From: Natrialba magadii ATCC 43099
GTDB lineage: Archaea > Halobacteriota > Halobacteria > Halobacteriales > Natrialbaceae
Direction of reading: 5' to 3'
Length of the DNA: 64,000 nucleotides
Assembly (NCBI RefSeq): GCF_000025625.1
Contig: NC_013922.1
Span: forward strand, 1,860,001-1,924,000
This document shows, piece after piece, positions 1,084-63,408 of the stretch. The position numbers and the translations under genes were made by a program. The stretch's first letter is position 1; each line of letters starts with the position of its first letter. Below the pieces are notes generated by a model, which did no database searches, had not been told where the DNA came from, and saw only the letters and a program-made list of their open reading frames with translations.

Positions 1084-2259
1084 TCATAGGTTCCTATCAC
1101 CGTGACGGATCACGGCGAGCAAGGTGAGGAGGGCAGCGAGTGCAGCGCCAGCGGGGAGGATGCCGAATCCGGGAATTCCGTCCGAGTCGTCAGTGGAGTC
1201 GGAGTCGGCTTCAGTTTCGGTCTCGTTGTCGGCGTCAGCCACCGTCTCGGATTCCGTTTCGGCGTCAGAAACCGCCTCAGCGTACGCCTCCGGGTGGAAC
1301 GTCTCGGCCATCGCCGTCACCGCGTGGACGACGCGCGGCCCGGGCCGGTTCAGGTGGTTGACTTCGATCGTCACCGTCTGGTTCTGCTCGACGGCAGTCG
1401 TAGAGTCGTAGGCCGGTGCGTCCGGCACGTCGGGCGAGTTCGTGTTCAGAATCAGCCACTCGGGATCCTGTTCGAGGATCATCTCGTCGGTTGGCTGCTG
1501 GTACTCCGTGATACCCGCCTCTGCGGCGACGTTCGTCCCGCCGCCGGCTTCGATCAGTTCGTGGATGAACGTCTCCTCGCCGGCCGTGAAGCCGAAGAAG
1601 GTGTAGAGCACGTCCGGGCGTTCCTCGCCCTCGAGTGCGTCCTCGACGATGGCGAGTTCCTCGTCCATCCAGTCGACGGTCTCGGCGGCACCGTCACACT
1701 CGCCGACGAGCGAGCCGATAGTGTGTGTTCGATCGCGAACGTCGTCGATCGACTCTGCGGAGTCGAAATAGTAGACAGGGACGTCAGCCTCGCGGAGCGT
1801 CTCGACTTCCTCGTCCTCGGAGACGTAGTCGGAGCTCGGCGCGAGTACGAGGTCGGGATCGAGGTCGACGATAATCTCGTGTTCGATCGTCTCGGACTCC
1901 GTCGAAACGCTCGTGCGATCCTCGGCACCCTCGAGATTCTCAGCGTGCTGTGTCGTCCCGACGACCTGGTCCTCGGCCCCAATTTCCCACATCGTCTGGG
2001 CCGCACTCGGGTTGAGCGTCACGACCGAGTCAGGAGGGGACTCGAGTTCGATCTCGGTGTCAGTGTCGTCCGTCACGGTCACCGGGAACGAGCAGGTCGG
2101 CTCGGTTGCATCGGCTGTCGATGCTGGTCCCGCTCCGGCCGCTCCGGTCGTTCCGGTCGTTCCGGTCGTTCCAACTGTTCCGGCCGCCGCCAGCGGACTC
2201 ACGAACCCGATCACGACGAGCACTGCGATACCCACAACGCCAATTCGCCGAACGTGCAT
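1084..2259 (-). CDS. Surface-anchored BtuF-like ABC substrate-binding protein (PGF-CTERM)
   Basis: A 391-residue exported binding protein. Residues 1-25 are a Sec-type signal peptide. A short GTTGTTGTTG linker follows, encoded by a 9-bp tandem repeat near 2147-2175. The TroA/BtuF fold spans about residues 60-320. An acidic Thr/Glu/Asp spacer then leads to IPGFGILP plus a hydrophobic segment and a basic end, which is the PGF-CTERM tripartite signal for archaeosortase processing and lipid anchoring. It should capture cobalamin or a chelated metal outside the cell. No permease or ATPase gene is in this window. The Met at 2259 gives the better signal peptide than the frame's first Met at 2283. 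Confidence 0.85.
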   Translation of the reverse strand: MHVRRIGVVGIAVLVVIGFVSPLAAAGTVGTTGTTGTTGAAGAGPASTADATEPTCSFPVTVTDDTDTEIELESPPDSVVTLNPSAAQTMWEIGAEDQVVGTTQHAENLEGAEDRTSVSTESETIEHEIIVDLDPDLVLAPSSDYVSEDEEVETLREADVPVYYFDSAESIDDVRDRTHTIGSLVGECDGAAETVDWMDEELAIVEDALEGEERPDVLYTFFGFTAGEETFIHELIEAGGGTNVAAEAGITEYQQPTDEMILEQDPEWLILNTNSPDVPDAPAYDSTTAVEQNQTVTIEVNHLNRPGPRVVHAVTAMAETFHPEAYAEAVSDAETESETVADADNETETEADSDSTDDSDGIPGFGILPAGAALAALLTLLAVIRHGDRNL

Positions 2260-2280
2260 ACCAGTACCGTCTCTACTAAT

Positions 2281-2315
2281 CAAAGATATATGTGACTATT
2301 GCAATCAGAGTTGCA
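2281..2315 (-). promoter_or_regulatory. TATA box plus inverted-repeat site before the anchored BtuF gene
   Basis: Read on the minus strand, ACATATATCTTTG (2281-2293) lies about 28 bases before the start codon at 2259, the spacing of a haloarchaeal promoter giving a leaderless or nearly leaderless mRNA. Directly upstream is an inverted repeat TGCAA-N6-TTGCA (2300-2304 and 2311-2315) where a regulator would sit next to the B-recognition element. The regulator is unknown; control by cobalamin or metal supply would fit the downstream genes. Confidence 0.5.
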
Positions 2316-2467
2316 TTCATGTGGGCACGCCTGCTGGTGACCGCGAGAGGGCAGACAGCGGTCGACAGCTACCCACTGGAATACGTTGTACTCGTACTCG
2401 AGTAGCAGTCCGGACAAAAGCGAAGAATCGGGATGCGAAGAGGCGACAGAAAACGAGGCGTGACGTG

Positions 2468-2558
2468 TTACGCGAACAGCTGTCGCGCGTCGTCGAGGGC
2501 GGCGACCAACTTGTCGATTTCCTCGCGCGTGTTATATACCAAGGTCGCTTGAGTCGAA
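2468..2558 (-). pseudogene. Remnant of the sufS 3' end
   Basis: On the minus strand this stretch reads YNTREEIDKLVAALDDARQ then LFA and stop, identical in protein to the last 23 residues of the intact cysteine desulfurase at 5685-6929. At DNA level there are about 9 mismatches in 73 bases, nearly all synonymous. Similarity fades after about 8 more codons with one codon deleted. It has no start and is not a gene. It may be an attachment-site copy left by an integrative element, or the tail of a lost second sufS. Together with sufS it brackets the AT-rich segment 2560-5684. Confidence 0.8.
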
Positions 2559-2899
2559 GTAAGTTTCGAGACTGCATGTGTTGATATTACACCACTTGTG
2601 AGGTGATTTGGAGTTTTGAGGATTTTTCAGGTCAGTTCACCGAACCATTGAGAGAAGTCATCTACTGTTATATTTTGGTATTCTTAAGCAGCATACGCTT
2701 ACCGGAGAATGGTGCTGCTCCGGGGGAAACGAATATGTATTTATTCATACACGACTGAAAACCCATTCCAGAACCTTATCCAGAAATGAGAGATGTTAAT
2801 TTGGATAGAGCTATAAATGATATCTTCCAAATGTATCCATGTCTTATGTATGGAAAGCCAGGCGAAAAGGCTACACTATAGAACTGCAAAGTATTAGAT
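2559..2899. other. AT-rich intergenic segment
   Basis: No convincing gene. Base composition drops sharply from the GC-rich left flank, marking the start of the island. A TATA-like CACTATAGAA near 2872-2881 sits about 24 bases before the ATG at 2900 and probably drives that gene as a leaderless transcript. The interval 2316-2467, left of the sufS remnant, also holds no gene I can support. Confidence 0.5.
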
Positions 2900-3319
2900 A
2901 TGGACGTTAGACGGTCAACATCACTAATCGGGTTAGGTACCATCGCTTTCGGTGCCTACCTTCCTTGGGTGACAACACACCCGAACGTGAACATAGAAAT
3001 TCTCGCACATCCGGCAGGACTTGGATCTGGTTTGGAAATTTGGGGAGCAATAACACTCCCCATCTCAATAATTGCAGTAATTGGGATCTTAGCTGACCTC
3101 CCATGGGTAGGTACACAGAAATACCTCCTACTTGTTGGGTTAGTGTCCATCATCCTCGGTATTATTCCAATATTGACTGATCCAGGTATTACTGGGGTGT
3201 TTATTTCGGGACCAGGACCATTTGTTACTGTTATTGGTTCAGTTATAACCATAATTTCACAACTTCCACCCATATCAGACTTAAATCACTATAGGACATC
3301 ATATTTTTCAATTCAGTAG
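2900..3319 (+). CDS. Small four-helix membrane protein, unknown
   Basis: A 139-residue protein I cannot assign to a family. It has about four hydrophobic segments (roughly residues 8-25, 48-66, 74-92 and 98-118) and few charged residues, so it is an integral membrane protein. Codon use is AT-rich and the protein lacks the acidic bias of the flanking chromosome, as expected for acquired DNA. A TATA-like box about 24 bases upstream supports the ATG start. It lies 155 bases from the convergent protease gene. Confidence 0.55.
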   Translation: MDVRRSTSLIGLGTIAFGAYLPWVTTHPNVNIEILAHPAGLGSGLEIWGAITLPISIIAVIGILADLPWVGTQKYLLLVGLVSIILGIIPILTDPGITGVFISGPGPFVTVIGSVITIISQLPPISDLNHYRTSYFSIQ

Positions 3320-3474
3320 AATATCTTATTCTTATGTCGATTTCCCAGGTAGATGGTGTGAGTGAATAGAGAACTCTAGAGGAGTGAGCAGACGGCGACA
3401 TTCTTTGAGATGTTACCTCCAGCTCTATCGAAACTATTCCTTGTTACCAATACAATGTATGTATTACAACACTT

Positions 3475-4821
3475 TTAGGAAAGAGATAGGCCAAATTCAT
3501 CAAGGACCCACTCAATAGACATTCCTCGGGTTCTACCATTTTCTGGATTTGCGAAGGCCAAACCTGCGAGTGAGTAAGGGTTGTGATCTTCAGGATCTAC
3601 GTACATAGGCCCTCCTGAATCCCCTTTATCAGAATCAGCTGAAATTGTAACATTATTCCAGTCTGGTTCCCATTCGGTTATGTGTCCGTCAGTCCTTCCA
3701 GTAGCTGTTCCTTGCTTTTCCATAGTATAAGATAAATTTCCAACCTCCGATTTAATTTTATCCTCTGTAACAATACTGTAGAAGGCACCTCGACATCCAC
3801 CACCTTCACTAGCTATGCACTGTTGAACTCTTATATCATCTTCTACTATCCACGTAGCAGCGTCTCTTCGAACGGTATCGTTAACTTGTTCAAAGATTAC
3901 TTCGTCACGCTCTCCTACAAAATTACCAGTTGCACCGTGCGATGGTTGATGAACCCTTCGGTAATTTCGATCGTCACTTGGCAAATCAAAATTATGACCT
4001 GCTGTAAGCATGTATCCCCATCCTGCGGTAGAGCAGGTTGTTCCATGCGTATGATAAGGGCTCCGTCGAACGTAAACACGTTGTTCAATTCCCCCCACTA
4101 CAGGACGATATTTGTCATCAAATTTCCCAATTAGTTTTTCTTTATCTGTTTCGACCGTCGTAGGAATTTCTACCTTTTCTGTATCACCACCTAAATCAAT
4201 AGAAACAGTTCCCAAGCTTTGGCTTGCTTCAGAAACTATTTCGCGGATGGTCTGGACTTCTTCTTCTGATGGTGATTTTGTCGAACTATATTCATATTTG
4301 ACCTGGCCACCCTCAGATTTGTCTACCTTCTCAGTCACACCATCTATTTCGATCTCAAACAGGTCTGTGGATATTAATTTCACGACGACTTCTTTTCCAC
4401 CATTATTTGCCGTTCGAACACCAGAGTAAATATCATCATATTCCGTTTGTGACACCACTTCTTTCTTAATATCTTTCGATAATTTCTCTGCTGCGATTAT
4501 TTCCGCCCATTCTTCACGTGGTACTGTTTCAACGACTGGTTCTTCTTGATCGGCATCACTATACTCCTTAGAAACGATATAAGATGTGATTGGGATTTCC
4601 TTTTTTGGATTGTCAGTTTTCGCAGCAGCATTTTCTTGTGATAGATAGGATAAACTGAGACCAGATACTCCAAGAGAGGACAAGAGTCCAATAAACCTGC
4701 GCTTACCCATCAGATATGGGTTTCGTTCCAAAGTTTGCTGGGTTTCATCTTTAGCTTTTTTACTAAGTTGTTCTTTTCGGTCGGAAGCATCACCTTCCGA
4801 AGAGCCATGGTCTTTGACCAT
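3475..4821 (-). CDS. Secreted trypsin-like serine protease (chymotrypsin fold)
   Basis: A 448-residue protein. The catalytic triad is readable: TAGH (His276), RRDAA (Asp320, the less certain member) and KGDSGGP (Ser402). A VVGG stretch before the domain resembles the start of mature trypsin-type chains. Residues about 70-240 form a probable propeptide. MGKRRFIGLLSSLGVSG at residues 38-54 looks like a Tat-type signal, so the Met at residue 38 may be the true start; the 37 residues ahead of it are unusually long and basic. Three cysteines lie in the protease domain. The gene is AT-rich and stands alone in the island, so it was probably acquired. The substrate is unknown; extracellular protein degradation or processing is inferred. 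Confidence 0.8.
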   Translation of the reverse strand: MVKDHGSSEGDASDRKEQLSKKAKDETQQTLERNPYLMGKRRFIGLLSSLGVSGLSLSYLSQENAAAKTDNPKKEIPITSYIVSKEYSDADQEEPVVETVPREEWAEIIAAEKLSKDIKKEVVSQTEYDDIYSGVRTANNGGKEVVVKLISTDLFEIEIDGVTEKVDKSEGGQVKYEYSSTKSPSEEEVQTIREIVSEASQSLGTVSIDLGGDTEKVEIPTTVETDKEKLIGKFDDKYRPVVGGIEQRVYVRRSPYHTHGTTCSTAGWGYMLTAGHNFDLPSDDRNYRRVHQPSHGATGNFVGERDEVIFEQVNDTVRRDAATWIVEDDIRVQQCIASEGGGCRGAFYSIVTEDKIKSEVGNLSYTMEKQGTATGRTDGHITEWEPDWNNVTISADSDKGDSGGPMYVDPEDHNPYSLAGLAFANPENGRTRGMSIEWVLDEFGLSLS

Positions 4822-4966
4822 ATTTTATAGTAATCACCGTACTAAATAAGTGTTGTTGTTAAATCATATTATTAGAATATTATATTGTTATCGCGGTTTA
4901 TTTAGTCTTTGAGGGTTTAGTATTATATGACTCGTCCATTACAGCCCTTTGAGTGACCCCATGAGA

Positions 4967-5618
4967 GGTCACTGTCTGGATGAGAGTTTGAGGAAGGAGC
5001 AGGTGGTGGCAAGAAGTGTCCAATACAACTCGCCAACCTGCTCAGAGAAACCTGAGACGTGGACTGTGATGAGGTTCGGGGTGCGCCTCCATCCAATGCG
5101 GTTGTCGGTTCGAGAGGTTGACTCACTCCTCGAATTACTCGCTATTGACCGTTCTCATGGGGCAATTTGAAACTGGACGTACAAACTCTCGGATGGTCAG
5201 AGGGAGGTCGACGGCGAGAAAAGTGGTTGTACGCCGCGATCGGCACAAAATCGAAACTCCTACTCGAGATCGATGTGTACAGCCGCCGCGGGACCGATCC
5301 TACGGCGGCGTTTCTGCATTAACTTACCGAGAAACACGATATTGGCAAAAAGATTCTCGTCGATGCTGGTGGCTACCTGACTGCCCTCAGTCGTCACGAC
5401 TTGAGCGGTAACCTCAACTACAGCGACGGAAACACCATCGAAAAGTTGTTTTAGACTGTCCCCATGCGAGTTATCCGTTTTCACTCCTTCTGGCGGGGAA
5501 GTCCAGCCAGCACACGCCGCTGGCTCAGACACTTCAGACACCACTATAACCACGATCAGCCGAATCAAGCACTCGATGGCCGAGTACTAGCCGAGGAGAT
5601 GCTCAACTAGACAGTGCC
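4967..5618 (+). mobile_element. Decayed IS6-family element, copy A
   Basis: About 650 bases closely related to the element at 62181-62926. The left end CACTGTCTGGATGAG and right end CTCAACTAGACAGTGCC form imperfect terminal inverted repeats. Between them are pieces of an IS6-type DDE transposase in several frames: KWLYAAI, IDVYSRRGTDP, a stop codon after [19 protein letters not shown], and RFHSFWRGS. A central deletion and stops make it inactive. It ends 66 bases from the sufS stop codon, at the right edge of the AT-rich island. The 145 bases to its left (4822-4966) are AT-rich with no gene. Confidence 0.8.
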
Positions 5619-5684
5619 ATCAAATACGTAACGTTCGAATCTGAATGTGAGATTAAAAAAAGACCCCCCCTTCGTTCGCAGCGA

Positions 5685-6929
5685 TTATGCAAACAGCTGC
5701 CGCGCATCGTCGAGGGCGGCGACCAGCTTGTCGATCTCCTCGCGTGTGTTGTAGACGTAGAACGAGGCGCGCGTCGAGGCCGGCACGCCGAGTTTGTCGT
5801 GCAGCGGCTGCGTGCAGTGATCACCGGCGCGGACGGCGATCGTGTGGTCGTTCATGATCGAGGTCAGGTCGTGGGCGTGGACGCCCTCGAGGTTGAAGCT
5901 GACGAGGCCGCCGCGGTCGGGGCCGCCTTCGGGGCCGTAGATTTCGACGTCCTCCTCGGCTTCGAGTCGGTCGTAGGCGTAGGCCGCGAGTTCCTCCTCG
6001 TGAGTCTCGATTCGATCCATACCGATCTCTTCGAGCCAGTCGACTGCTGCATGGAGGCCGACGGCTTCGGCGATCGGCGGCGTTCCCGGTTCGAACTTCC
6101 AGGGAAGTTCGCCCCAGGTAGAGTCCTCGAAGGTAACCTTGCGGATCATCCCACCGCCGTAGAGGTAGGGGTTCAGGTCCTCGAGGAGGTCCTGTTTCCC
6201 GTAGAGGACACCGATGCCGGTCGGGCCGGCCATCTTGTGGCCCGAGAAGGCGTAGAAGTCGGCGTCGATCTCCTTCACGTCGACGGGGCGATTTGGGACG
6301 GCCTGTGCGCCGTCGATAAAGGAGAGCGCGTCGTGCTCGTGGGCGAGGTTGGTCAGTTCGGAGACGGGGTTGACGGTGCCGAGCGTGTTCGAGACGTGGA
6401 CCGCCGAGACGATGGCGGTGTCGTCGTCGATGAGGTCGACAGCGTGGTCCATGTCGAGTCGACCGGTCTCGTCGACGCGGATGTACTCGACGCTGGCACC
6501 GGTCCGTTTGGCGATCTGTTGCCAGGTGACCAGCGAGGCGTGGTGTTCCATCTCCGTGAGGACGACCGTATCCTCGGGGCCGAGTTCGTTCAGGCCCCAG
6601 GAATAAGCGAGCAGGTTCTCGCTCTCAGTGGTGTTCTTGGTGAAGACGACCTCCTCGCGGCCGTCGGCGTTGATGAACTCGGCGACGCGGTCGTGGGCGA
6701 CCTCGTAGGCCTCCGAGGCTTCCTGGCTCAGGTGGTGGATCCCGCGGTGGACGTTGGCGTTCGACTCACGGTAGTAATCGCTCATGGCATCGACAACCGG
6801 GTCCGGCGTCTGGGTCGTCGCCGCGTTGTCGAGGTAGACGACCTGCTGGCCGTCGAACTCGCGCTGGAGAATCGGAAACTCCTCGCGGATGGCCGCGACG
6901 TCGATCGCGTCGGCCTGCTGGTGACTCAT
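5685..6929 (-). CDS. sufS: Cysteine desulfurase SufS
   Basis: A 414-residue PLP enzyme that takes sulfur from cysteine as a persulfide for iron-sulfur cluster assembly, making alanine. Visible elements are LDNAATTQ near residue 34, EMEHHASLV with the PLP-stacking His near 130, FSGHKMAGP with the PLP lysine K232, and RAGDHCTQP with the active-site cysteine C372. Most SufS proteins have an amino acid other than Asp just before that His. Length is normal for the class II group. No other suf genes lie beside it here. Its last 23 codons are duplicated at 2468-2540, and an IS6 remnant lies just past its stop. Confidence 0.93.
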   Translation of the reverse strand: MSHQQADAIDVAAIREEFPILQREFDGQQVVYLDNAATTQTPDPVVDAMSDYYRESNANVHRGIHHLSQEASEAYEVAHDRVAEFINADGREEVVFTKNTTESENLLAYSWGLNELGPEDTVVLTEMEHHASLVTWQQIAKRTGASVEYIRVDETGRLDMDHAVDLIDDDTAIVSAVHVSNTLGTVNPVSELTNLAHEHDALSFIDGAQAVPNRPVDVKEIDADFYAFSGHKMAGPTGIGVLYGKQDLLEDLNPYLYGGGMIRKVTFEDSTWGELPWKFEPGTPPIAEAVGLHAAVDWLEEIGMDRIETHEEELAAYAYDRLEAEEDVEIYGPEGGPDRGGLVSFNLEGVHAHDLTSIMNDHTIAVRAGDHCTQPLHDKLGVPASTRASFYVYNTREEIDKLVAALDDARQLFA

Positions 6930-46891: not shown

Positions 46892-48199
46892 CTACTGGTC
46901 GGCCTGCGGTGATTTCGTTCCGGTCTCGAGTGACAGTCGCAAGAAGATCGGGATCGTGATGAGTGCAATGATGATCTCGAGTCCGCCAACGACGAGGAAC
47001 GCGAGGTCGTAGCCGTAGGAACCGGCGACAGAGCCGCCGATGAGGAAGCCACCGAGGAAGCCAAGGCTCCCAGCGACGTTGAAGCCGGCCATCGCAGTCC
47101 CGCGTTCGCGTTCGTCGGCGAGGTCCGTGACGAGCGCCATCGTCGCAGGTGAGACGAGCGCGCCGAGAATGCCCACGACGACCATCGCCATCGCAGCGGT
47201 GCCGACAGACGGGGCAATCCCAACGCCGAGGATACCGAAACCGTAACAGGCGGAGCCGACCACGACCGGGATCGTCCGGCCAATTCGGTCGGAAAGCGAT
47301 CCGAGTGGGTACTGCAGGAGGGCAAACGGCGCAAAGAAACACGCGAGCAACAGTCCCGTCGCGCCGGGACCGAGGTTGAACGTCTCTTGGAAGTACAGGG
47401 TTCCAACGAGTGCGAAGAAGCCCGCCGTCATTCGATCGACGAACCCGAAGGCATAAGGAAGTGACAGCGTGGGCCGCTGGCGCACTCCCTCGATCAGCGC
47501 GCGGGCGGTGCGACGAGACGCCGGCGTTCGGTCCTCGAGCCGAGAGACCAGGAGCCCAACACAGACGAGCAAAGTAGCCGCAGCCAGCAGTGGCGCAACC
47601 GGATCGAGTTCGGTCAGTTGGCCGCCGATCGGCGCGCCCGTTGCGGCCCCGAGTCCGATAGCGATGCCGGCCGCGCCCATATTGCGCCCGTGGCCGCCCT
47701 CGAGATCCATCAGCATCGTCATCGTCAGCGAGAGCGCGCCGATCGTCATCGCACCCTGCAGGACGCGCAACAGGAGGACACCCTCGAACGGAATGCTGCC
47801 GAGCGAAGGGACAACCGCCAGCGCGGCGTAACTGGCCGCGCCGGCCACCGCACTCAGGACGATGAACGGCGTTCGACGGCCAGTAATATCACTGATTGCA
47901 CCCCAGATACCGACGAAGACGACGTAGGCGGCGAACTCGCTCACGAGGAACCACATGCTCGCATCGAGCGTCGTCGACGCAACGGGCGAACTCGCCGCAT
48001 CAGCACCCAGCACGTCGACCAGGGTCGCGATACCCGGGTAGAGCAGCAGTTGCGAGAAGAGCACGGAAAAGACGACCGCCGCGAGCACGAGCCGGTCACG
48101 ATCACTCGAGTGCACGACCGGTGGTTCGAACCAGGAGAATATGAAGGCGTCCGTCTCGTCGCCGTCCGTGCGCTCGCCATTAGATGCGTCGTTTGCCAC
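46892..48199 (-). CDS. MFS transporter
   Basis: A 435-residue membrane protein with twelve predicted helices. The loop GAISDITGRRTPF between helices 2 and 3 and GSLSDRIGRTIPV after helix 8 are the MFS G-x-x-x-D-R/T-x-G-R-R motifs in both halves. Drug or metabolite efflux is the common role in this subgroup; the substrate is unknown. It is the last GC-rich gene before the AT-rich island at 48.2 kb. Confidence 0.85.
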   Translation of the reverse strand: MANDASNGERTDGDETDAFIFSWFEPPVVHSSDRDRLVLAAVVFSVLFSQLLLYPGIATLVDVLGADAASSPVASTTLDASMWFLVSEFAAYVVFVGIWGAISDITGRRTPFIVLSAVAGAASYAALAVVPSLGSIPFEGVLLLRVLQGAMTIGALSLTMTMLMDLEGGHGRNMGAAGIAIGLGAATGAPIGGQLTELDPVAPLLAAATLLVCVGLLVSRLEDRTPASRRTARALIEGVRQRPTLSLPYAFGFVDRMTAGFFALVGTLYFQETFNLGPGATGLLLACFFAPFALLQYPLGSLSDRIGRTIPVVVGSACYGFGILGVGIAPSVGTAAMAMVVVGILGALVSPATMALVTDLADERERGTAMAGFNVAGSLGFLGGFLIGGSVAGSYGYDLAFLVVGGLEIIIALITIPIFLRLSLETGTKSPQADQ

Positions 48200-48560
48200 C
48201 GCCAGGGAAGCCCGCCAGACACGTCAACAGGACTAATACCGTTAGCCAGTGATTTCTTAAATATCACTTACAGGGGAGTATTGAAGTCTATTTGGTGACC
48301 CGGACATCAACATCATACGTAAAAATAAATGTAGATGAACGAGGGGCTATTCAAAGACCGTTCCATTTGACCAATGAAGAGCGTTTTTTACAGAGATTTG
48401 GTTAAATATAGTGCATTGAATGGGCGGGATGAAAGCACATCATAAGTAGAAGAGATTTCAATAGGAAGAACCCCATTATATTAGATGGGAATTCTAATGG
48501 TAAATAATTAGTTTAAGCGTATACTGTAACTTTTAATATATGTAGTGAGTAATATAATGT
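48200..48560. promoter_or_regulatory. AT-rich left edge of island with TATA box for the halocin-like gene
   Basis: 361 bases with a sharp fall in GC just past the MFS gene. No gene is seen. CTTTTAATATATG (48529-48541) is centred about 25 bases before the ATG at 48561, giving a leaderless transcript. Shorter AT-rich tracts further left offer no second box that I can separate from background. Confidence 0.55.
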
Positions 48561-49457
48561 ATGGAAAGAAGAAAGTTACTCCAAGCAATTGGAAGCGGAT
48601 CGGTTGGTATCGGTACTGTAGGTGCAATTTCAGGTAGTAGTACGGCCAAAGAAAACAACATTGCAGCACGAGATCACAGTGAGGACGCTACAGCGTCTCT
48701 AATCAAACAGGCTCAATCGGATTCGGACTTACGCGCCCTCATTGATCATGCAAATGAAAACGGATGGCGTATACCGTGGGACAGTGCAACAACTAAACGT
48801 ATAACCAGCCAAACGGAAACAGGGTATTACGACTACATCGTTGTCGAGGCGGAGTCGTCTAGCCAACAAGTGGAGAAAGAGGAGGAGTTAGTATTCATTT
48901 GGATTGGTAACGATACAATGGGTTTAGACCTTTCGCACCATACAGTTATCCACCACGTTCAAAAAACGGACAAACCGACAGCTAGTGGCCTCTTTGGGTG
49001 GGACAAAGTAAAAGTGATAAAATCCGAGGCCGGTGATATTATCCAAACAGAGAGGGATTTCCATAGGGAGAACGAATTAGGAGCGGACGATTACACGTTC
49101 CCTCCCGGTGGTGGCAGTAGTGAATGTGTCGAAGTAGACGTCCAAATAGCTCCAGACGCAAAATGGGATTGTGTCGCCCTAGCTGTCGCGGGTGCGATTC
49201 CAACTTCCGTGCCATGTTCGACTTGTATTCTAGATGTTACACGTACGTCGTGTGCTGTCTGCGCAATTGCGACTGTTATATACAAGGTTTCCTCGATGCA
49301 TTGCTTTTCTGATTTGGGGCCTGTCGTTCAAGCAGATGTCGAAGAATGGTTTTTCGAGGAACACGATGATTTCAGTTACTCGGATTTTGCGACCTGGACA
49401 GATGAGGCACTAGTTGTTGACGAAACCTTTTATAACGAAGACCTACCTGTCTGCTAG
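48561..49457 (+). CDS. Tat-type precursor with Cys-rich C-terminus, halocin C8-like candidate
   Basis: A 298-residue precursor. RRKLLQAIGSGSVGIGTVGA at 3-22 resembles a Tat signal. Residues 30-185 have no cysteine and would be the immunity/leader-like part. From residue 189 there are eight cysteines (189, 204, 219, 222, 231, 234, 248, 298) in a hydrophobic stretch (CVALAVAGAIPTSVPCSTC). Halocin C8 is made the same way: one gene encodes a Tat signal, an N-terminal immunity protein and a C-terminal Cys-rich hydrophobic peptide. The resemblance is architectural, not a checked alignment; the Cys spacing differs and the last about 50 residues are acidic. Confidence 0.45.
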   Translation: MERRKLLQAIGSGSVGIGTVGAISGSSTAKENNIAARDHSEDATASLIKQAQSDSDLRALIDHANENGWRIPWDSATTKRITSQTETGYYDYIVVEAESSSQQVEKEEELVFIWIGNDTMGLDLSHHTVIHHVQKTDKPTASGLFGWDKVKVIKSEAGDIIQTERDFHRENELGADDYTFPPGGGSSECVEVDVQIAPDAKWDCVALAVAGAIPTSVPCSTCILDVTRTSCAVCAIATVIYKVSSMHCFSDLGPVVQADVEEWFFEEHDDFSYSDFATWTDEALVVDETFYNEDLPVC

Positions 49458-49536
49458 GTGAGCTATAGAGCCACATTTATACCCATATAGTTATGGGAAA
49501 CTCAAATATCTAATACGGAGAAATATATAGAACACC

Positions 49537-49806
49537 ATGATGAGTCCACTGATCTTGTTGTACACCATTTTATTTATATTTCTATTTTTGATTATAAGGA
49601 GAGAGTATGCAAGAGGCTCAGATAAGTATGAAATTTGTGGTTGGGTTATGGTGGCGGGAAGCTTTTTCTTCCTCTTTGTTACTACTACTGACATGCATGT
49701 TCCTATATTATCAAGGGTGCAAGAAGTGACTGTGTACGGTCTAATAGCCATTCAGGGGGTGGCAGCGTGGATGTTTCTCTGGTTATCGAATACATCAAAG
49801 TTTTAA
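49537..49806 (+). CDS. Small membrane protein next to the halocin-like gene
   Basis: An 89-residue protein with three hydrophobic segments (about 3-20, 34-52 and 64-84) and a short basic loop RREYARGSDK. It follows the halocin-like gene by 79 bases on the same strand in the same AT-rich island. Its size and position would suit a membrane immunity or export helper, but no motif supports that. The start could be residue 1 or 2 (MM). Confidence 0.5.
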   Translation: MMSPLILLYTILFIFLFLIIRREYARGSDKYEICGWVMVAGSFFFLFVTTTDMHVPILSRVQEVTVYGLIAIQGVAAWMFLWLSNTSKF

Positions 49807-50000
49807 TATCTTATCTGTGTTAGACTGAATTGGTTATTAGCGTTGGTTTTACAGATAGTTATTAATACGACTACAGACGGCCACACCAGATAATCCGATT
49901 CAGCCCACGTTTTAACTCCGGAGTGTTATCACTAGCCACAGACAGCGGTTTTTGCCGTTACTGAGGCGCATATGAGGCTGGAGTTATATGCATACTGAAC

Positions 50001-53111: not shown

Positions 53112-53200
53112 TTGACCTCCTCCCGCGCCTAAAGTCGCGGGAATCCCACCATGGGATTTCAGGCCGAGCGAAGTAGCCTGTTGGTTTCAAGACGCATTCG
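53112..53200 (-). ncRNA. Probable omega RNA / right end of the TnpB element
   Basis: Directly after the tnpB stop the minus strand carries two hairpins: AATCCCA (53142-53148) with TGGGATT (53152-53158), then TCCCGCG with CGCGGGA (53121-53127 and 53136-53142), followed by GGAGGTCA near 53114-53121. TnpB elements make their guide RNA from this right end, with the guide taken from flanking DNA after the element, here starting near 53112 and running down. The exact 5' end and border are inferred. Confidence 0.6.
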
Positions 53201-54509
53201 TTCCATGCGTCACCTGCTGGGGTTCAGCATCGGCATGGCTGTCTTGTGGCCCGGTCAATGAGGCCCCATCCGTAGCCGAGTCATCGTCACCAGCCTTCTG
53301 CCGGGAAGTCCGGTCGCTTTGGCGGTGGCTCTCTCCACTACGGTAGCGGTCTGCGATATTCATCGCCCCGTTCACGTCAGCCTGGTATTCTGTGACCCAA
53401 CAGTCGTCGTTCGAACAGCGGAACGTCGCCTGTCGTGGGCGAGAGCCGACCTTACCACAGGCGTGGCATTCTTTCGACGTGTTCCGGGGATTCACCGTCT
53501 CGACGGGAATCCCCTTCTCGGCGGCTTTGTACCGAATCTGTGCGTGGAGCTTCGCAAAGCCCCATCCATGTAACCGCCGGTTCATGTACGCGCCGTAGTC
53601 CATGTTCTCACGGATGTACGTCAGGTCTTCCAGTACCAGCACCGGGTTCTCGACGGACTCGGCGTATTCAACGACCTCGCGAGTTACCCGGTGGACCACG
53701 TGGTCAATCCGGTTCCACAGCGATTCGCCGTAGGACTCCGTGGTTCGCTCACTGCCACGTCTCTGAAGCCGTCGCTTGGCGGTGAAGTAGGTTTTGCGGA
53801 GCCTCCGGACGGTTTTGCCGTCGTTGGCCCACAGTTTGGGGCGAACCGGAGAGCCACTCTCATCGCGGTGACACACCGTGACGAGACTCGCTTCTCCGAT
53901 GTCGACGCCGATCGGCGTCCTGTCGAGCCCAGCGAGACAGGGCTCGCCAGACGAGTCTGGCGGGGTCCGCTCGTTGGCAGACGTCGCAGATTGTTCCTCT
54001 ACGTCGCGGGTGGCGGTGATGTGGAGATACCACGTCCCATCCCGCTCGAGGAGCCGACTTTCACCCATCTCGACATCACCAGCATACACTGCTTCCAGCC
54101 AATCCCGCTGGTCTGGATTGGCGTGTGCCGGGATCCAGAGGTGGTAATCGTCGTGATGAGGGATTTTGACGTACCACTCGAGGGCGTTCTGTGGCTTGTG
54201 GTCGAGTTGAACACCTTCGTTGGTAAACTTCACCGGATGGTCGTCGTGAAGTTCGTCGGTATCGTAGCTGCCGCCACAGAGTTGCGGGACGTACTGCTTG
54301 AGGGCGTTTTTAGCGTAGCCGGAAAGGTCGTACTCGACAACAATGTCGTTTGTGGCTGACTGGGTGGTGCAGTCGGCGTCGAAGGCTGCCTGAAGTGCCT
54401 GCTGATATGCCTCACGAGTCTCACAGAGCTTGCGCTCCTTGTGAGCATTGGGGTCGACGAGGCGCAACTCGAGCGTCTTCGTGACTTCAGGCATCCGTTC
54501 TGTACCCAT
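53187..54509 (-). CDS. tnpB: TnpB RNA-guided nuclease (IS1341-type, IS200/IS605)
   Basis: A 440-residue TnpB. The RuvC acidic residues are in GVDIGEASLV (Asp), VLVLEDLTYI (Glu) and QADVNGAMNIA (Asp). A zinc ribbon with CHACGKV and CSNDDC lies between the last two. The frame is intact with no stops, so it is probably functional. No tnpA lies next to it, so it is a stand-alone element. The start is MGTERMPEVTKTLELRL at 54509 or MPEVTK at 54494. TnpB cuts DNA matching its guide next to a short TAM, helping the element persist. Confidence 0.88.
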   Translation of the reverse strand: MGTERMPEVTKTLELRLVDPNAHKERKLCETREAYQQALQAAFDADCTTQSATNDIVVEYDLSGYAKNALKQYVPQLCGGSYDTDELHDDHPVKFTNEGVQLDHKPQNALEWYVKIPHHDDYHLWIPAHANPDQRDWLEAVYAGDVEMGESRLLERDGTWYLHITATRDVEEQSATSANERTPPDSSGEPCLAGLDRTPIGVDIGEASLVTVCHRDESGSPVRPKLWANDGKTVRRLRKTYFTAKRRLQRRGSERTTESYGESLWNRIDHVVHRVTREVVEYAESVENPVLVLEDLTYIRENMDYGAYMNRRLHGWGFAKLHAQIRYKAAEKGIPVETVNPRNTSKECHACGKVGSRPRQATFRCSNDDCWVTEYQADVNGAMNIADRYRSGESHRQSDRTSRQKAGDDDSATDGASLTGPQDSHADAEPQQVTHGTNAS

Positions 54510-54623
54510 CAATACGGCACAGGACACGATATACGTCAGCCATGCGGAGTGAAAGTAAAGGATGGAAATCCACCGCAGCGTCACTCCGAAAACGGACAAT
54601 CAGAGGTGACCACGCTGCGTCGA

Positions 54624-58496: not shown

Positions 58497-58952
58497 TTAC
58501 TTCATTGCAGCACTAATGAGGACTCCTGCGATTGCTCCGACAGTACCAATGAAGAGCGGCACGATTAGCGTGACCGCAATACTTCCCAGCGGTGGGATCC
58601 CCTCCCACGGTCGAAAAAAATAGAGTGGAAATGCAACCAATCCAAAGGGGACAATTAGCAGAAGCGGAGTCGTAGTTCCGTATCGCTTTGCAGTGATCCA
58701 TCCAGCGGCAGCCGATCCACAGAGACCACCTATCAATAGGGCTACCCACAACATAAGAAATCCAGCAGCGACACCTTCTGCAAATAGGTCGAAAATCTGG
58801 ATACCAAGCATACCCAGTATGTATGAAAAGCCCACAACACCAACAATTAACCCATTAGGAATAGTAATTGAATATAAAATTGTCTTTAAAACGGGGATCA
58901 AGTGAAATCGGGCGACCGATTGACCGAGGGGTTGAGACTTCTCATTATCCAT
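58497..58952 (-). CDS. Four-helix membrane protein, unknown
   Basis: A 151-residue AT-rich membrane protein. Hydrophobic segments near 21-48, 56-80, 93-110 and 124-148. The second contains GGLCGSAAAGWITAKRYG, a Gly-rich helix and a charged turn. I do not recognise the family. It stands alone at the edge of the AT-rich island; base use suggests transfer. Confidence 0.55.
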   Translation of the reverse strand: MDNEKSQPLGQSVARFHLIPVLKTILYSITIPNGLIVGVVGFSYILGMLGIQIFDLFAEGVAAGFLMLWVALLIGGLCGSAAAGWITAKRYGTTTPLLLIVPFGLVAFPLYFFRPWEGIPPLGSIAVTLIVPLFIGTVGAIAGVLISAAMK

Positions 58953-59251
58953 TTTATAGAAATTATTAATTTCCTTGATTATAAATACTTTCTCATTATA
59001 AACACCACCAATATTTCTATCAGAATGGTTTGTGATTAATGTCTATGATTTTTAAATTACTCAAACAATTATGTTTTCCATCTCAGAAGCCATATTAGCA
59101 TCTTTTTATTCCTTGCTTGTGAAACAACACTCTTGTGAAGGGTACTGATACTGAGTGGGAGAACAACCCAAACATAACCTTTCAGATATTCTTAGCCAGG
59201 CTTGCGTAGGATTCTACGGTGAAAGTGGAAAGTCAAAGACTAGCTGTAAGT

Positions 59252-59545
59252 TTATTTCTCAAACCCCTCGATACGACTCTCGTATGTATTCACGTGTACG
59301 GTTCCGTCGACGCATTTGCCTTCCACGTAACTAACTGCTTCTTTCAGATGGTCTGTGTTTTCTCTTAGTAGATCGTAAGTACGAAATCTTCGGGGTAGAC
59401 CGTCAGCGACTTCACCCCGTAGCTGTCGACGAAGAGCCGCACGGTTGATTTGCCAGCAGGTTTTGAGGGAACAATGTGTCACCGATCGCTGCCTCGCTCG
59501 ACGTGGATGAACAGCGGTGGTTTGTCTTCGTCATAATCCTTCGTC
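59252..59545 (-). pseudogene. IS1595-family transposase remnant
   Basis: Minus-strand pieces match the C-terminal half of IS1595/ISXO2-type transposases: DEDKPPLFIHVERG, then in another frame STVRLFVDSYGVKSLTVYPEDF, then ENTDHLKEAVSYVEG and DGTVHVNTYESRI. Frameshifts and stops separate them, so it is inactive. It shows that the island has gathered more than one kind of mobile element. The family is inferred from the HVNT motif and layout. Confidence 0.6.
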
Positions 59546-60135
59546 GACGTTTCGAAAGAACATATGAACCCAACGATTAGTTATACTCGCAATCTGCCTT
59601 ACCAACGCAGAGGAACTCATTGACCACAACCAGGTTAACATGATTAGTTCGAGATGCGTCAAGTGTTCTGGCAAACCGCTCAACGCTCCGCTGCAGCGTT
59701 TGTACGAAGCATCGATTCCAGCTTCTAACTGGCAGATACTCGTGCCAAATCAGAGTAACAAGTAGAACACGAATAACAGCTTACTGGGCTCATTTCCGCG
59801 TGCGCGAGCATTAATATTATGCTTGTCGTTGAACCATCACCCACAATCCTTGTGGTGATACCGCAAACACTCTCGACAGCCACCATACTTGATTACGATT
59901 CAGTCCGGAGTTCAGACATTAAAGGTCCTCGTACTAGCGACCCGGCTATTTGATTCGAATCTCTGTCTCCAGGATTAAAATCGTTTGGGAGAATATAGCC
60001 GAGAGGTGTTGATGAATCACTCCTGTCGCTACGTCTTCACAGCGGCAGTTCTGAACAACAAATAATCTACTTCTGAGGATACCATAACAATACCGAAAGT
60101 ATTATTACCTAACTAATAGTAGGTTTCATTTGTAT
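59546..60135. other. AT-rich region without gene
   Basis: 590 bases. Short frames lack motifs. ATCACCCACAATC near 59836-59848 shares 12 bases with the flank of the TnpB element at 53099-53110. A TATA-like stretch near 60100-60107 may drive the Tat-type gene at 60136. Confidence 0.4.
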
Positions 60136-60782
60136 ATGAGAGTCAAAATAAATAGGCGAGACATACTGCAAGCAACTGCATTAGTCGGCGTATCTAATAT
60201 CGCTGGTGTAGGACTGAGTGCAGCCGAAAAAGACATTGAAACAGAAGAGTTGGGTACAATACATTATAGCGAGATGGGGATTACATTTGATTGCGACCTA
60301 ATTCCAAACACAGTTGCATGTTACGGCCCCAGTTATGAATTTACAGAGGATTATGAAGAAATGATTGTACCGATGGCCTCTAAAGAGGATGTGAGAGTCG
60401 TCAAAAAATCAGATGAAGTGGTGAATTTTAGGAATTTGTTAGAATTACCAACAAGTGACACAAGACGGAAAACACGGTCTGTACCGCTGGCATTAAATAA
60501 ACAAAAAATCCGATATCGTTCGGTCAGGCCAGACACCCAATATTAATACCAGCGATTCGAGCGGATGCCACGAGTAGCGATTCAATTAGGGTCTCAGTTG
60601 GATCCAAGAACATGGAGGTTGCTGAAGGGGAGACTAATAAACTCAATCTCAGCACTCAATCAATTACTGCTGCGGCGACTGGCGAATTAAACCGACCAGT
60701 AGAGATGAAAGCGACTCCGGTAGTTGAGTTGGTGAACCACGGTGTCGTTACCGTTAAAGCGGCAAAAATACTTGATGAATAA
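60136..60782 (+). pseudogene. Frameshifted Tat-type gene, unknown
   Basis: From the ATG at 60136 the frame opens with NRRDILQATALVGVSNIAG, a Tat-like signal, and runs to a stop at 60546. In the +2 frame, open reading continues from about the AACAAAAAATCC run (60499-60510) with RHPILIPAIRADATSSDS... to the TAA at 60780-60782. One missing or extra A in the run would join both parts into about 215 residues. This could be a true pseudogene, a sequencing error or a programmed frameshift. The longer product would abut the next gene by one base. Confidence 0.6.
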
Positions 60783-60783
60783 C

Positions 60784-61581
60784 ATGACACAGTCATTGAA
60801 TATTTTCCTTTGGCACCACGGTGGTCACACCAGTGAATCGGAACTTGGTACCGCAAGTGAGGCGATTGAGCAGTTAGACAACCAATTAGATTTCTATGAT
60901 ATCCACATTATAAATTCAGATTGGTTTCGCACGCCTTATTCAGGTGTAAGCGATGCCGATAATCCGAGCGAGCTCCTAGATGACTTTGCGGAGCATGTGA
61001 AAGATAATTATCCAGAAGACATTCATTCACATCACATTCACCTGCTTGTATTCAAGCACACCGGTATCTCTTCAGGTTTTAACATCGGTGCTGGAGTAGG
61101 CCGTCAAGCAGTTGGGGATAATTTGGGAACGGATGAGTTTGAGAATCAAGGGACAGTTGCAGCCGCAAACGCCTACACTGAAATATATGGTAGTATAGTA
61201 TATGGAGAAGGTGAACAAACGTTCAAGAACACAGTTATTCATGAAATAGTCCATACTTTAACCAAGCATGACCTCGAATACTATTCGGCCCCTGGCGAGG
61301 ATTGCATGAGTGGTGCTAATACCGATCATTCCTTTGGCCAAATCGATGCTAATGGTTCGGTTTCGCCCATGGTCACCTGGTACACAGGTGAATCAGATCC
61401 GGGAGTTAGTGATAAACCATGTGAGCTCTGTTTTGATTTATCAGCTCCTGAAACACTCAGCTCAGAACTGACTTTTTGTGCAGAGTCTACTATAATGGAT
61501 CATGAAGAAGAGATAGATTTCACTAACGGTGATAATGGTGGGGGAGATCCCTGGGAACCAACATCAGATAGTCACGATTGA
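60784..61581 (+). CDS. Zincin-type metalloprotease candidate
   Basis: A 265-residue protein. HEIVH (153-157) followed by TLTKHD gives HExxH with a possible third ligand His162 or Asp163; the aspzincin/snapalysin group uses a similar Asp-type ligand. Several cysteines lie at 174, 213, 216 and 232. No signal peptide is seen, so export would need the partner gene or it acts inside. The ATG at 60784 is one base after the upstream frame's stop, implying translational coupling. The open frame also extends upstream to 60742. Confidence 0.6.
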   Translation: MTQSLNIFLWHHGGHTSESELGTASEAIEQLDNQLDFYDIHIINSDWFRTPYSGVSDADNPSELLDDFAEHVKDNYPEDIHSHHIHLLVFKHTGISSGFNIGAGVGRQAVGDNLGTDEFENQGTVAAANAYTEIYGSIVYGEGEQTFKNTVIHEIVHTLTKHDLEYYSAPGEDCMSGANTDHSFGQIDANGSVSPMVTWYTGESDPGVSDKPCELCFDLSAPETLSSELTFCAESTIMDHEEEIDFTNGDNGGGDPWEPTSDSHD

Positions 61582-62180
61582 CTAGTACCTATCCCTTCGC
61601 TTTTTTGTATAGTTCGTATTCGTTAGTTCCTTCTTCAGGTGCCATAGCGAGATATTCACTGCCATCTGTTGGTCTACAGTTGCTGGAAGAACTATCTCGT
61701 TGTCCAGACAATCACAGGAAAAATTCTGAGTTAGTCAGTCGTCTCACACTCAGCACAGCCAGCAGTCCCAACTGAGGCAACCGTAATGAACTGAGTAATT
61801 TCTACAATTCAGATCTATTGTAGCCAATAGATTGTTGAATCCTTTGTCGTTGTTGGGAACCCGGTGAGGCGCTACCGCAAGTGAGTTGCATGTCAGGATA
61901 CGACTCAACTGACGAAGCCCAGCACTGAACATGCGCTCTCCTATAATTCCGTCATTGTTGTCCCGGTTCACGGGCCCTGAGGCAGTCACTACTCCAGTAG
62001 TGTCAGGCCACCAATTCTAAGTTCAAAAAATCGTCTTGAGCACCGAGTTGAGCACAGCAGGGCGAATTAGTTCAACTGCCCATCAGTAGCACACAGTGGC
62101 AGGGGCACTGTTCAGATCAGAGTTTGAAAGAGTGAGACGGTGGAATTCGTGGTTCCTATGCCAAATTCGACCATCTCAGT
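61582..62180. other. Decayed region between the metalloprotease and IS6 copy B
   Basis: 599 bases. On the minus strand at 61589-61660 a short tail reads PTDGSEYLAMAPEEGTNEYE then LYKKAKG and stop, which looks like the end of a real but lost gene. From 61750 to 61989 the minus frame is open, with no motif I recognise. No intact gene is supported. Confidence 0.4.
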
Positions 62181-62926
62181 GGCACGGGACTGTCTAGATG
62201 AGAGTTTGAGGAATGAGCAGATAGTGGCGAGAAGTGTCTATGCAACTCGCCAGCCTGCTCAAAGAGAGCTTAGATGTGAATTGTAATGAGTTTGGGAGAA
62301 TAAGCGCACCGCGCACACCCTAACGGATGTTGGGGGGTGCCTGCGCTCAATGGAATTGTCAGTTCGGGAGGTGAGCTCAGTGTTCGAATCACTCGGTATT
62401 GACCTCTCTCACGACGCAATCTTGAACTTGACGAAAAAACTATCAGTTTCCCAGAACGACCCGTCGACGGCAAAGCCGTCGCGGGTCGCGGTCGGCGAGA
62501 CACAGATTGAAGTTGACGGCGAAGAAAAGTGGCTGTACGCTGCGATCAACATAGAACCGAAGCTGCTGCTCGAAATCGACGTGTACAGCCGCCGCGAAAC
62601 CGATCCCGCGGCGGCGTTCTTACACCGTCTCACCGAGAAACACGATATCGACGAGATAGAGTTTCTTGTCGACGCTGGTGGCTATCTGACTGCCCCCGTT
62701 CGTTACGACTTGATCGGTCACCTCAACTACAGCGACCGAAACTACATCGAAAAGTTGTTTCAGACGATCTCAATGCGAATTGGCCGCTTTCACTCCTTCT
62801 GGCGGGCAGTACAGCCAACGCACACCGCTGGCACAGGCGCTTCAGACACCACTATAACCACGATCGGCCGAATCAATCGCCTGATGGGCGTACACCAGCC
62901 GAGGAGGTGCTCAACTAGACAGTGCC
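62181..62926 (+). mobile_element. IS6-family element, copy B, disrupted
   Basis: About 746 bases between imperfect ends (GGACTGTCTAGATGAG near 62187 and CTCAACTAGACAGTGCC to 62926). The transposase starts [20 protein letters not shown] and shows [33 protein letters not shown] and FHSFWR, the DDE regions of IS6. After FHSFWR the frame shifts (a relative reads [15 protein letters not shown]), so the C-terminus is wrong and it is probably inactive. It is fused in frame with the hisI reading frame. Copy A at 4967 is the closest relative here. Confidence 0.82.
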
Positions 62927-62967
62927 GCGGCAAAAGACCTATCGCCCCAACGACCAACCCATCAGAC

Positions 62968-63408
62968 ATGGACGACAACGGCGACGTTGCGGTCGAGTTC
63001 GGCGAGGACGGCCTCGTCCCCGCGGTCGCACAGGACGCCGAGACAGGCGAGGTCCTCATGCTCGCCTACGTCTCCCCGGAGGCCCTAAAGCGCACGCGCG
63101 AAACCGGTCGCGCACACTACTACTCGCGCAGTCGGGACGAACTCTGGGAGAAGGGCGCGACGAGCGGCCACGTTCAGGACGTCCGCGAGGTGCGCGTTGA
63201 CTGCGACGCCGACACGCTGCTCTATCTGGTCGACCAGGAGGGCGGCGCGTGTCACACCGGCCACCGCTCGTGTTTCTACCGCACCATCGACGGCGAGACG
63301 GTCGGCGAGGCCGTGTTCGATCCGGACGCAGTCTACGCGGACGGCGGAACGGTCGACGAGACGGCCCACGTCGACGAGCGTGACGAACCAACCACCGAAT
63401 CCGAGTAA
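62968..63408 (+). CDS. hisI: Phosphoribosyl-AMP cyclohydrolase HisI
   Basis: A 146-residue enzyme that opens the purine ring of phosphoribosyl-AMP in histidine synthesis. It has [32 protein letters not shown] with the Asp triplet that binds Mg, and the zinc-related cysteines in [12 protein letters not shown]. The Met at 62968 starts [18 protein letters not shown]. The IS6 copy B ends 41 bases before it, so the native promoter may be displaced. Confidence 0.95.

Follow-up and report, generated by a model that had tools for sequence, protein, structure and literature searches.

In Escherichia coli, the HybO/HybC and PaoA/PaoBC systems each carry a Tat signal on one protein and none on its neighbor, and the Tat machinery exports the proteins as folded complexes (PMC4273604). 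The Streptomyces tyrosinase pair MelC1/MelC2 likewise joins a small helper protein to a secreted metalloenzyme, with export through Tat (PMC3817396). Tat is a dominant export route in the haloarchaeal lineage (PMC3403918). Here, we describe a locus within a 64,000-nucleotide stretch of the Natrialba magadii genome (the window), in which a partner gene encoding a Tat signal stands next to a gene for a zincin-like protein. Like HybO/HybC and PaoA/PaoBC, this pair has a Tat signal on one member only. In contrast to those systems, redox enzymes with metal cofactors whose co-export has been demonstrated, the haloarchaeal pair has a zincin-like protein as its signal-less member, belongs to an archaeal host and is a putative co-export pair. 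We consider it probable that the locus is a two-gene unit in which the Tat partner would carry the signal-less zincin, and that the escort has been crippled in N. magadii by the loss of a single base.

A partner gene split at an A run

The initial annotation described a 138-codon frame, continued across an A6 run by a second open frame that ends one base before the ATG of an HExxH protein. We confirmed the frame, its continuation and these junctions but not the length, since the frame that opens at ATG 60136 encodes 136 amino acids plus the stop and reaches 138 only if a TTG at 60130 is taken as the start. An RR (Tat) signal lies near the start of this frame 0 (KINRRDILQATALVGVSNIAGVGLSA). The −1 frame continues without a stop from the A run to a TAA at 60780-60782, and the zincin-like open reading frame (ORF) begins one base later. 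The features are as follows.

60136..60546, + strand: partner gene, N-terminal part to the premature stop (ORF; 17-homologue profile, model positions 7-142, E 2.6e-16)
60503..60508, + strand: A6 run, a one-base loss relative to the A7 of the sister species (sequence comparison)
60505..60782, + strand: partner gene, C-terminal part in the −1 frame, with the family C-terminal motif ATPVVELVNHGVVTVKAAK (profile positions 125-233, E 5.9e-10; translation)
60784..61581, + strand: zincin-like protein, 265 amino acids, without signal peptide, intact (ORF; relatives)
61240..61254, + strand: HEIVH motif, residues 153-157 of the zincin-like protein (alignment with relatives)
61324..61338, + strand: DHSFG, the conserved (D/E)HxxG with its invariant His, residues 181-185 (alignment with relatives)

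A profile built from 17 partner proteins of other genomes, with the window left out, matched frame 0 and then the −1 frame in the correct order, and family likeness in the N-terminal part stopped at the A run, at about codon 124. With both frames matched by a profile from outside genomes and the HExxH position kept in relatives, the layout of an exported-type protein beside an HExxH protein stands above chance. The search for a fused frame in homologues, proposed at the outset, found exactly that: partner homologues have an uninterrupted frame that overlaps or abuts the zincin gene, as in genome G166, where a single 233-amino-acid frame overlaps its zincin by 4 bases. In the near relative and sister species N. 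chahannaoensis, the site reads A7, a length that joins the two window frames into one. The sister A7 and the fit of the 17-homologue profile to one gene split at the run thus point to a one-base loss or a reference error. On this comparison of sequences, the two frames belong to one gene that a one-base difference has split: either the window partner gene is broken by the loss of one A or the reference sequence is wrong at the A6.

The partner gene of N. chahannaoensis is also broken, by an insertion element with a 10-base target duplication and ends that form imperfect inverted repeats. Right of the element stands TAAACAAAAAAATCCG, which contains seven A, and left of it the flank closes with TAAACAAAAA. 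The same gene has suffered different breakages at the same AT-rich site, a one-base loss in the window and an insertion element in the sister species (compared: L002 1-120, L011 1-110). Damaged partner genes occur in other genomes as well: the G371 copy has internal stops, and the sequence of the G341 C18 copy shows an apparent frame break within its signal region.

A programmed −1 shift at the A6 run, raised initially as a possibility, would yield two forms of the partner, one short and one long. The two frames do abut at the six-A run, the shift has the right sign, and low-level slippage at such a run may occur. However, homologues have a single frame, the same DNA of the sister species has A7, and the codons at the run (AAT AAA CAA AAA ATC) include no X XXY YYZ heptamer in frame. 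Of the marks of programmed −1 frameshifting, neither an in-frame slippery heptamer nor a two-frame layout kept in homologues was found. We therefore rejected this explanation as highly improbable. Sequencing errors are common at homopolymer runs, and the zincin amino acids are identical to those of the sister species within DNA that is 98-99% identical, all of which would suit an A6 that is a reference error in an organism with an intact partner gene. Yet the sister copy is broken at the same site and damage to partner genes is seen in other genomes, so a loss here is not unusual, and we regard a reference error as possible but improbable. Simple decay, named at the outset as the main alternative to frameshifting, is the best account of the window frameshift.

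In agreement with the initial description of a transposon-rich AT island, G+C falls to 0.46 and 0.44 over 58-62 kb, compared with about 0.62 around it; a DDE (IS240/IS6-like) transposase remnant lies just downstream, within ORF 62350-63408, and a TnpB-like gene with a Cas12f1-like TNB domain lies at 53187-54599. In ORF 62350-63408 the DDE remnant is joined in one frame to a phosphoribosyl-AMP cyclohydrolase (PRA-CH) domain, and this ORF is probably no true fusion but a transposase remnant that lies upstream of hisI. Two more low-G+C stretches occur in the window, at 2001-6000 and 48001-50000 (45-49% versus about 62%). Island DNA of N. magadii and N. chahannaoensis is 98.2% identical over 58637-60507 and 99.5% identical over 60498-62338. 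Near-identity across the island (58637-63000) includes intergenic DNA, and past about 63.0 kb identity of the Natrialba pair drops to roughly 92-93%, a possible sign of recent exchange or of unusual conservation.

Two unnamed haloarchaeal families

The zincin-like protein, whose amino acid sequence is unchanged in N. chahannaoensis, is by homology a member of an unnamed haloarchaeal family. A 15-row profile of that family found matches in 94 of the 391 haloarchaeal genomes. All 15 profile rows keep, without variation, the second His of HExxH, both the His and the Gly of (D/E)HxxG, one Pro and one Cys, and the His of DHSFG is a candidate third metal ligand. From these motifs, the protein may bind zinc and act as a protease. 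Among paired zincins, 10 have HExxH, 7 have QExxH and 3 have HNxxH, with one unplaced, and because of these active-site variants catalysis should not be assumed for every paired member. At loci L005, L008 and L015, HNxxH replaces HExxH and the catalytic Glu is missing in proteins that are otherwise conserved.

The family resembles metzincins, such as the reprolysin-like proteins, in that a conserved (D/E)HxxG comes after HExxH and in a (V/I)(T/S)PM segment that recalls the Met-turn. It differs from them in lacking HExxHxxGxxH/D and its Gly, with the next conserved His about 9-25 residues on, and in the frequency of HNxxH and QExxH among paired members. The window protein itself reads HEIVHTLTKHD, without the Gly. 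It reached no family cut-off in Pfam, NCBIfam or PADLOC, and one family member gave a weak Reprolysin_3 match (E 0.0018). No relative was found among the solved structures searched, where the sole weak match was an antibody chain, or in the viral contigs and phage records searched, and a single-sequence AlphaFold model (mean pLDDT 33) was too poor for a reading of the fold.

The partner is conserved past its signal, down to the C-terminal motif. When partners were compared with Pfam, NCBIfam and PADLOC, only a generic Tat-signal model passed its cut-off, in one homologue. MelC1/MelC2 is, like the haloarchaeal pair, a two-gene unit, but the likeness of the partner to MelC1 does not extend beyond the signal: NCBIfam MelC1 matches to two partners were far below cut-off and covered the signal region only, with no homology over the mature partner protein. 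The partner was thus rejected as a homologue of the MelC1 tyrosinase chaperone.

Own Tat signal or Tat partner

Long members of the zincin-like family mostly have an RR signal of their own, whereas short members are signal-less and usually stand beside an RR-signal gene that lies either upstream or downstream and in many cases overlaps them by 1 to 4 bases. In a count restricted to the mature portion of the partner family, 21 of the 34 signal-less loci had the family, compared with 0 of the 61 own-Tat loci (Fisher p 1.5e-12, only a guide, as the loci are related by descent and the counts non-independent). Seventeen of the 21 partner-positive loci fed rows to the counting profile, so that the 21 is partly built in and the 0/61 is not; partner-positive loci L002, L005, L077 and L095 lie outside this profile. 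We preferred the profile count because motif-based counting of Tat neighbors had overlooked L021 and L075, both of which have partners. On the tree, the labels required 11 changes, whereas shuffled labels required 28 on average, with long branches blurring the details. Own signal and partner thus alternate across the family.

Ten signal-less loci had first been scored as without a Tat neighbor. A gene of the partner family was later found at two of these, L077 and L095, and a third, L022, is located at the end of a contig. On rechecking, no partner was found beside the signal-less zincins of L054, L056, L064, L125 and L090, and the signal-less scoring of L084 and L089 rests on uncertain starts. 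A search begun from the partner yielded five new loci with an adjacent or overlapping zincin frame (L138, L139, L144, L145 and L147), weak zincin signs only at L141, L148 and L154, and an ambiguous case at L152; at L143, L146 and L151 the partner is present with no recognized zincin nearby. The coupling of an exported protein with a zincin-like protein, first noted at the window locus, recurs in many haloarchaea.

At three related loci, a signal-less zincin has an unrelated 325-amino-acid Tat protein upstream and a 135-amino-acid Tat protein downstream. One of the three (L103; contig 2, about 293866-294546) is a second signal-less zincin in the window's own genome; it is situated between the 325- and the 135-amino-acid Tat protein, the latter with a lipobox-like Cys, and all of these genes are intact. 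A third member in this genome (L099; contig 1, 1848745-1849515) has its own Tat signal, and its relatives are widespread in the zincin-like family.

A proposed Tat escort

We propose Tat hitchhiking because the partner occurs at many signal-less loci and is absent from own-Tat loci, and by analogy with HybOC and PaoABC. As expected of a hitchhiker pair, a twin-arginine signal on one member accompanies a neighbor without a signal, and the counts indicate that the partner is dispensable where the zincin has its own signal. The position of the partner relative to the zincin varies, upstream or downstream. In intact copies, the partner would bind the zincin, already folded, in the cytoplasm and then take it across the membrane via the Tat translocase. 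In the window strain, the loss of one A from the A7 run would have cut off the C-terminal part of the partner and left the zincin gene untouched. Binding and co-export are what we infer from the gene arrangements and from the known systems.

The main rival to hitchhiking holds that the partner is an exported inhibitor, an immunity protein or a separate chaperone, and that the zincin stays inside or leaves by other means. Enzyme genes often adjoin genes for their inhibitors or chaperones, and the conservation of the partner as far as its C-terminal motif speaks for such a role. Alone, however, it accounts neither for the absence of the partner family from own-Tat loci nor for the unrelated Tat proteins found in the same place, and we judge it rather unlikely. 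Hitchhiking remains our preferred reading at this locus. Its extension to the whole family is evenly poised: a dedicated haloarchaeal escort family would export zincin-like proteins that lack a signal, some of them altered in the active site, and lineages would have exchanged an own signal for an escort or the reverse.

The frameshift, which first marked this locus out, is ordinary damage. If the proposal is true, the pair would represent a recurrent example of Tat co-export among archaea. Members with their own signal and members with an escort would serve as a natural comparison set, in which the idea is easily tested, and two unnamed protein families would gain a first functional hypothesis.
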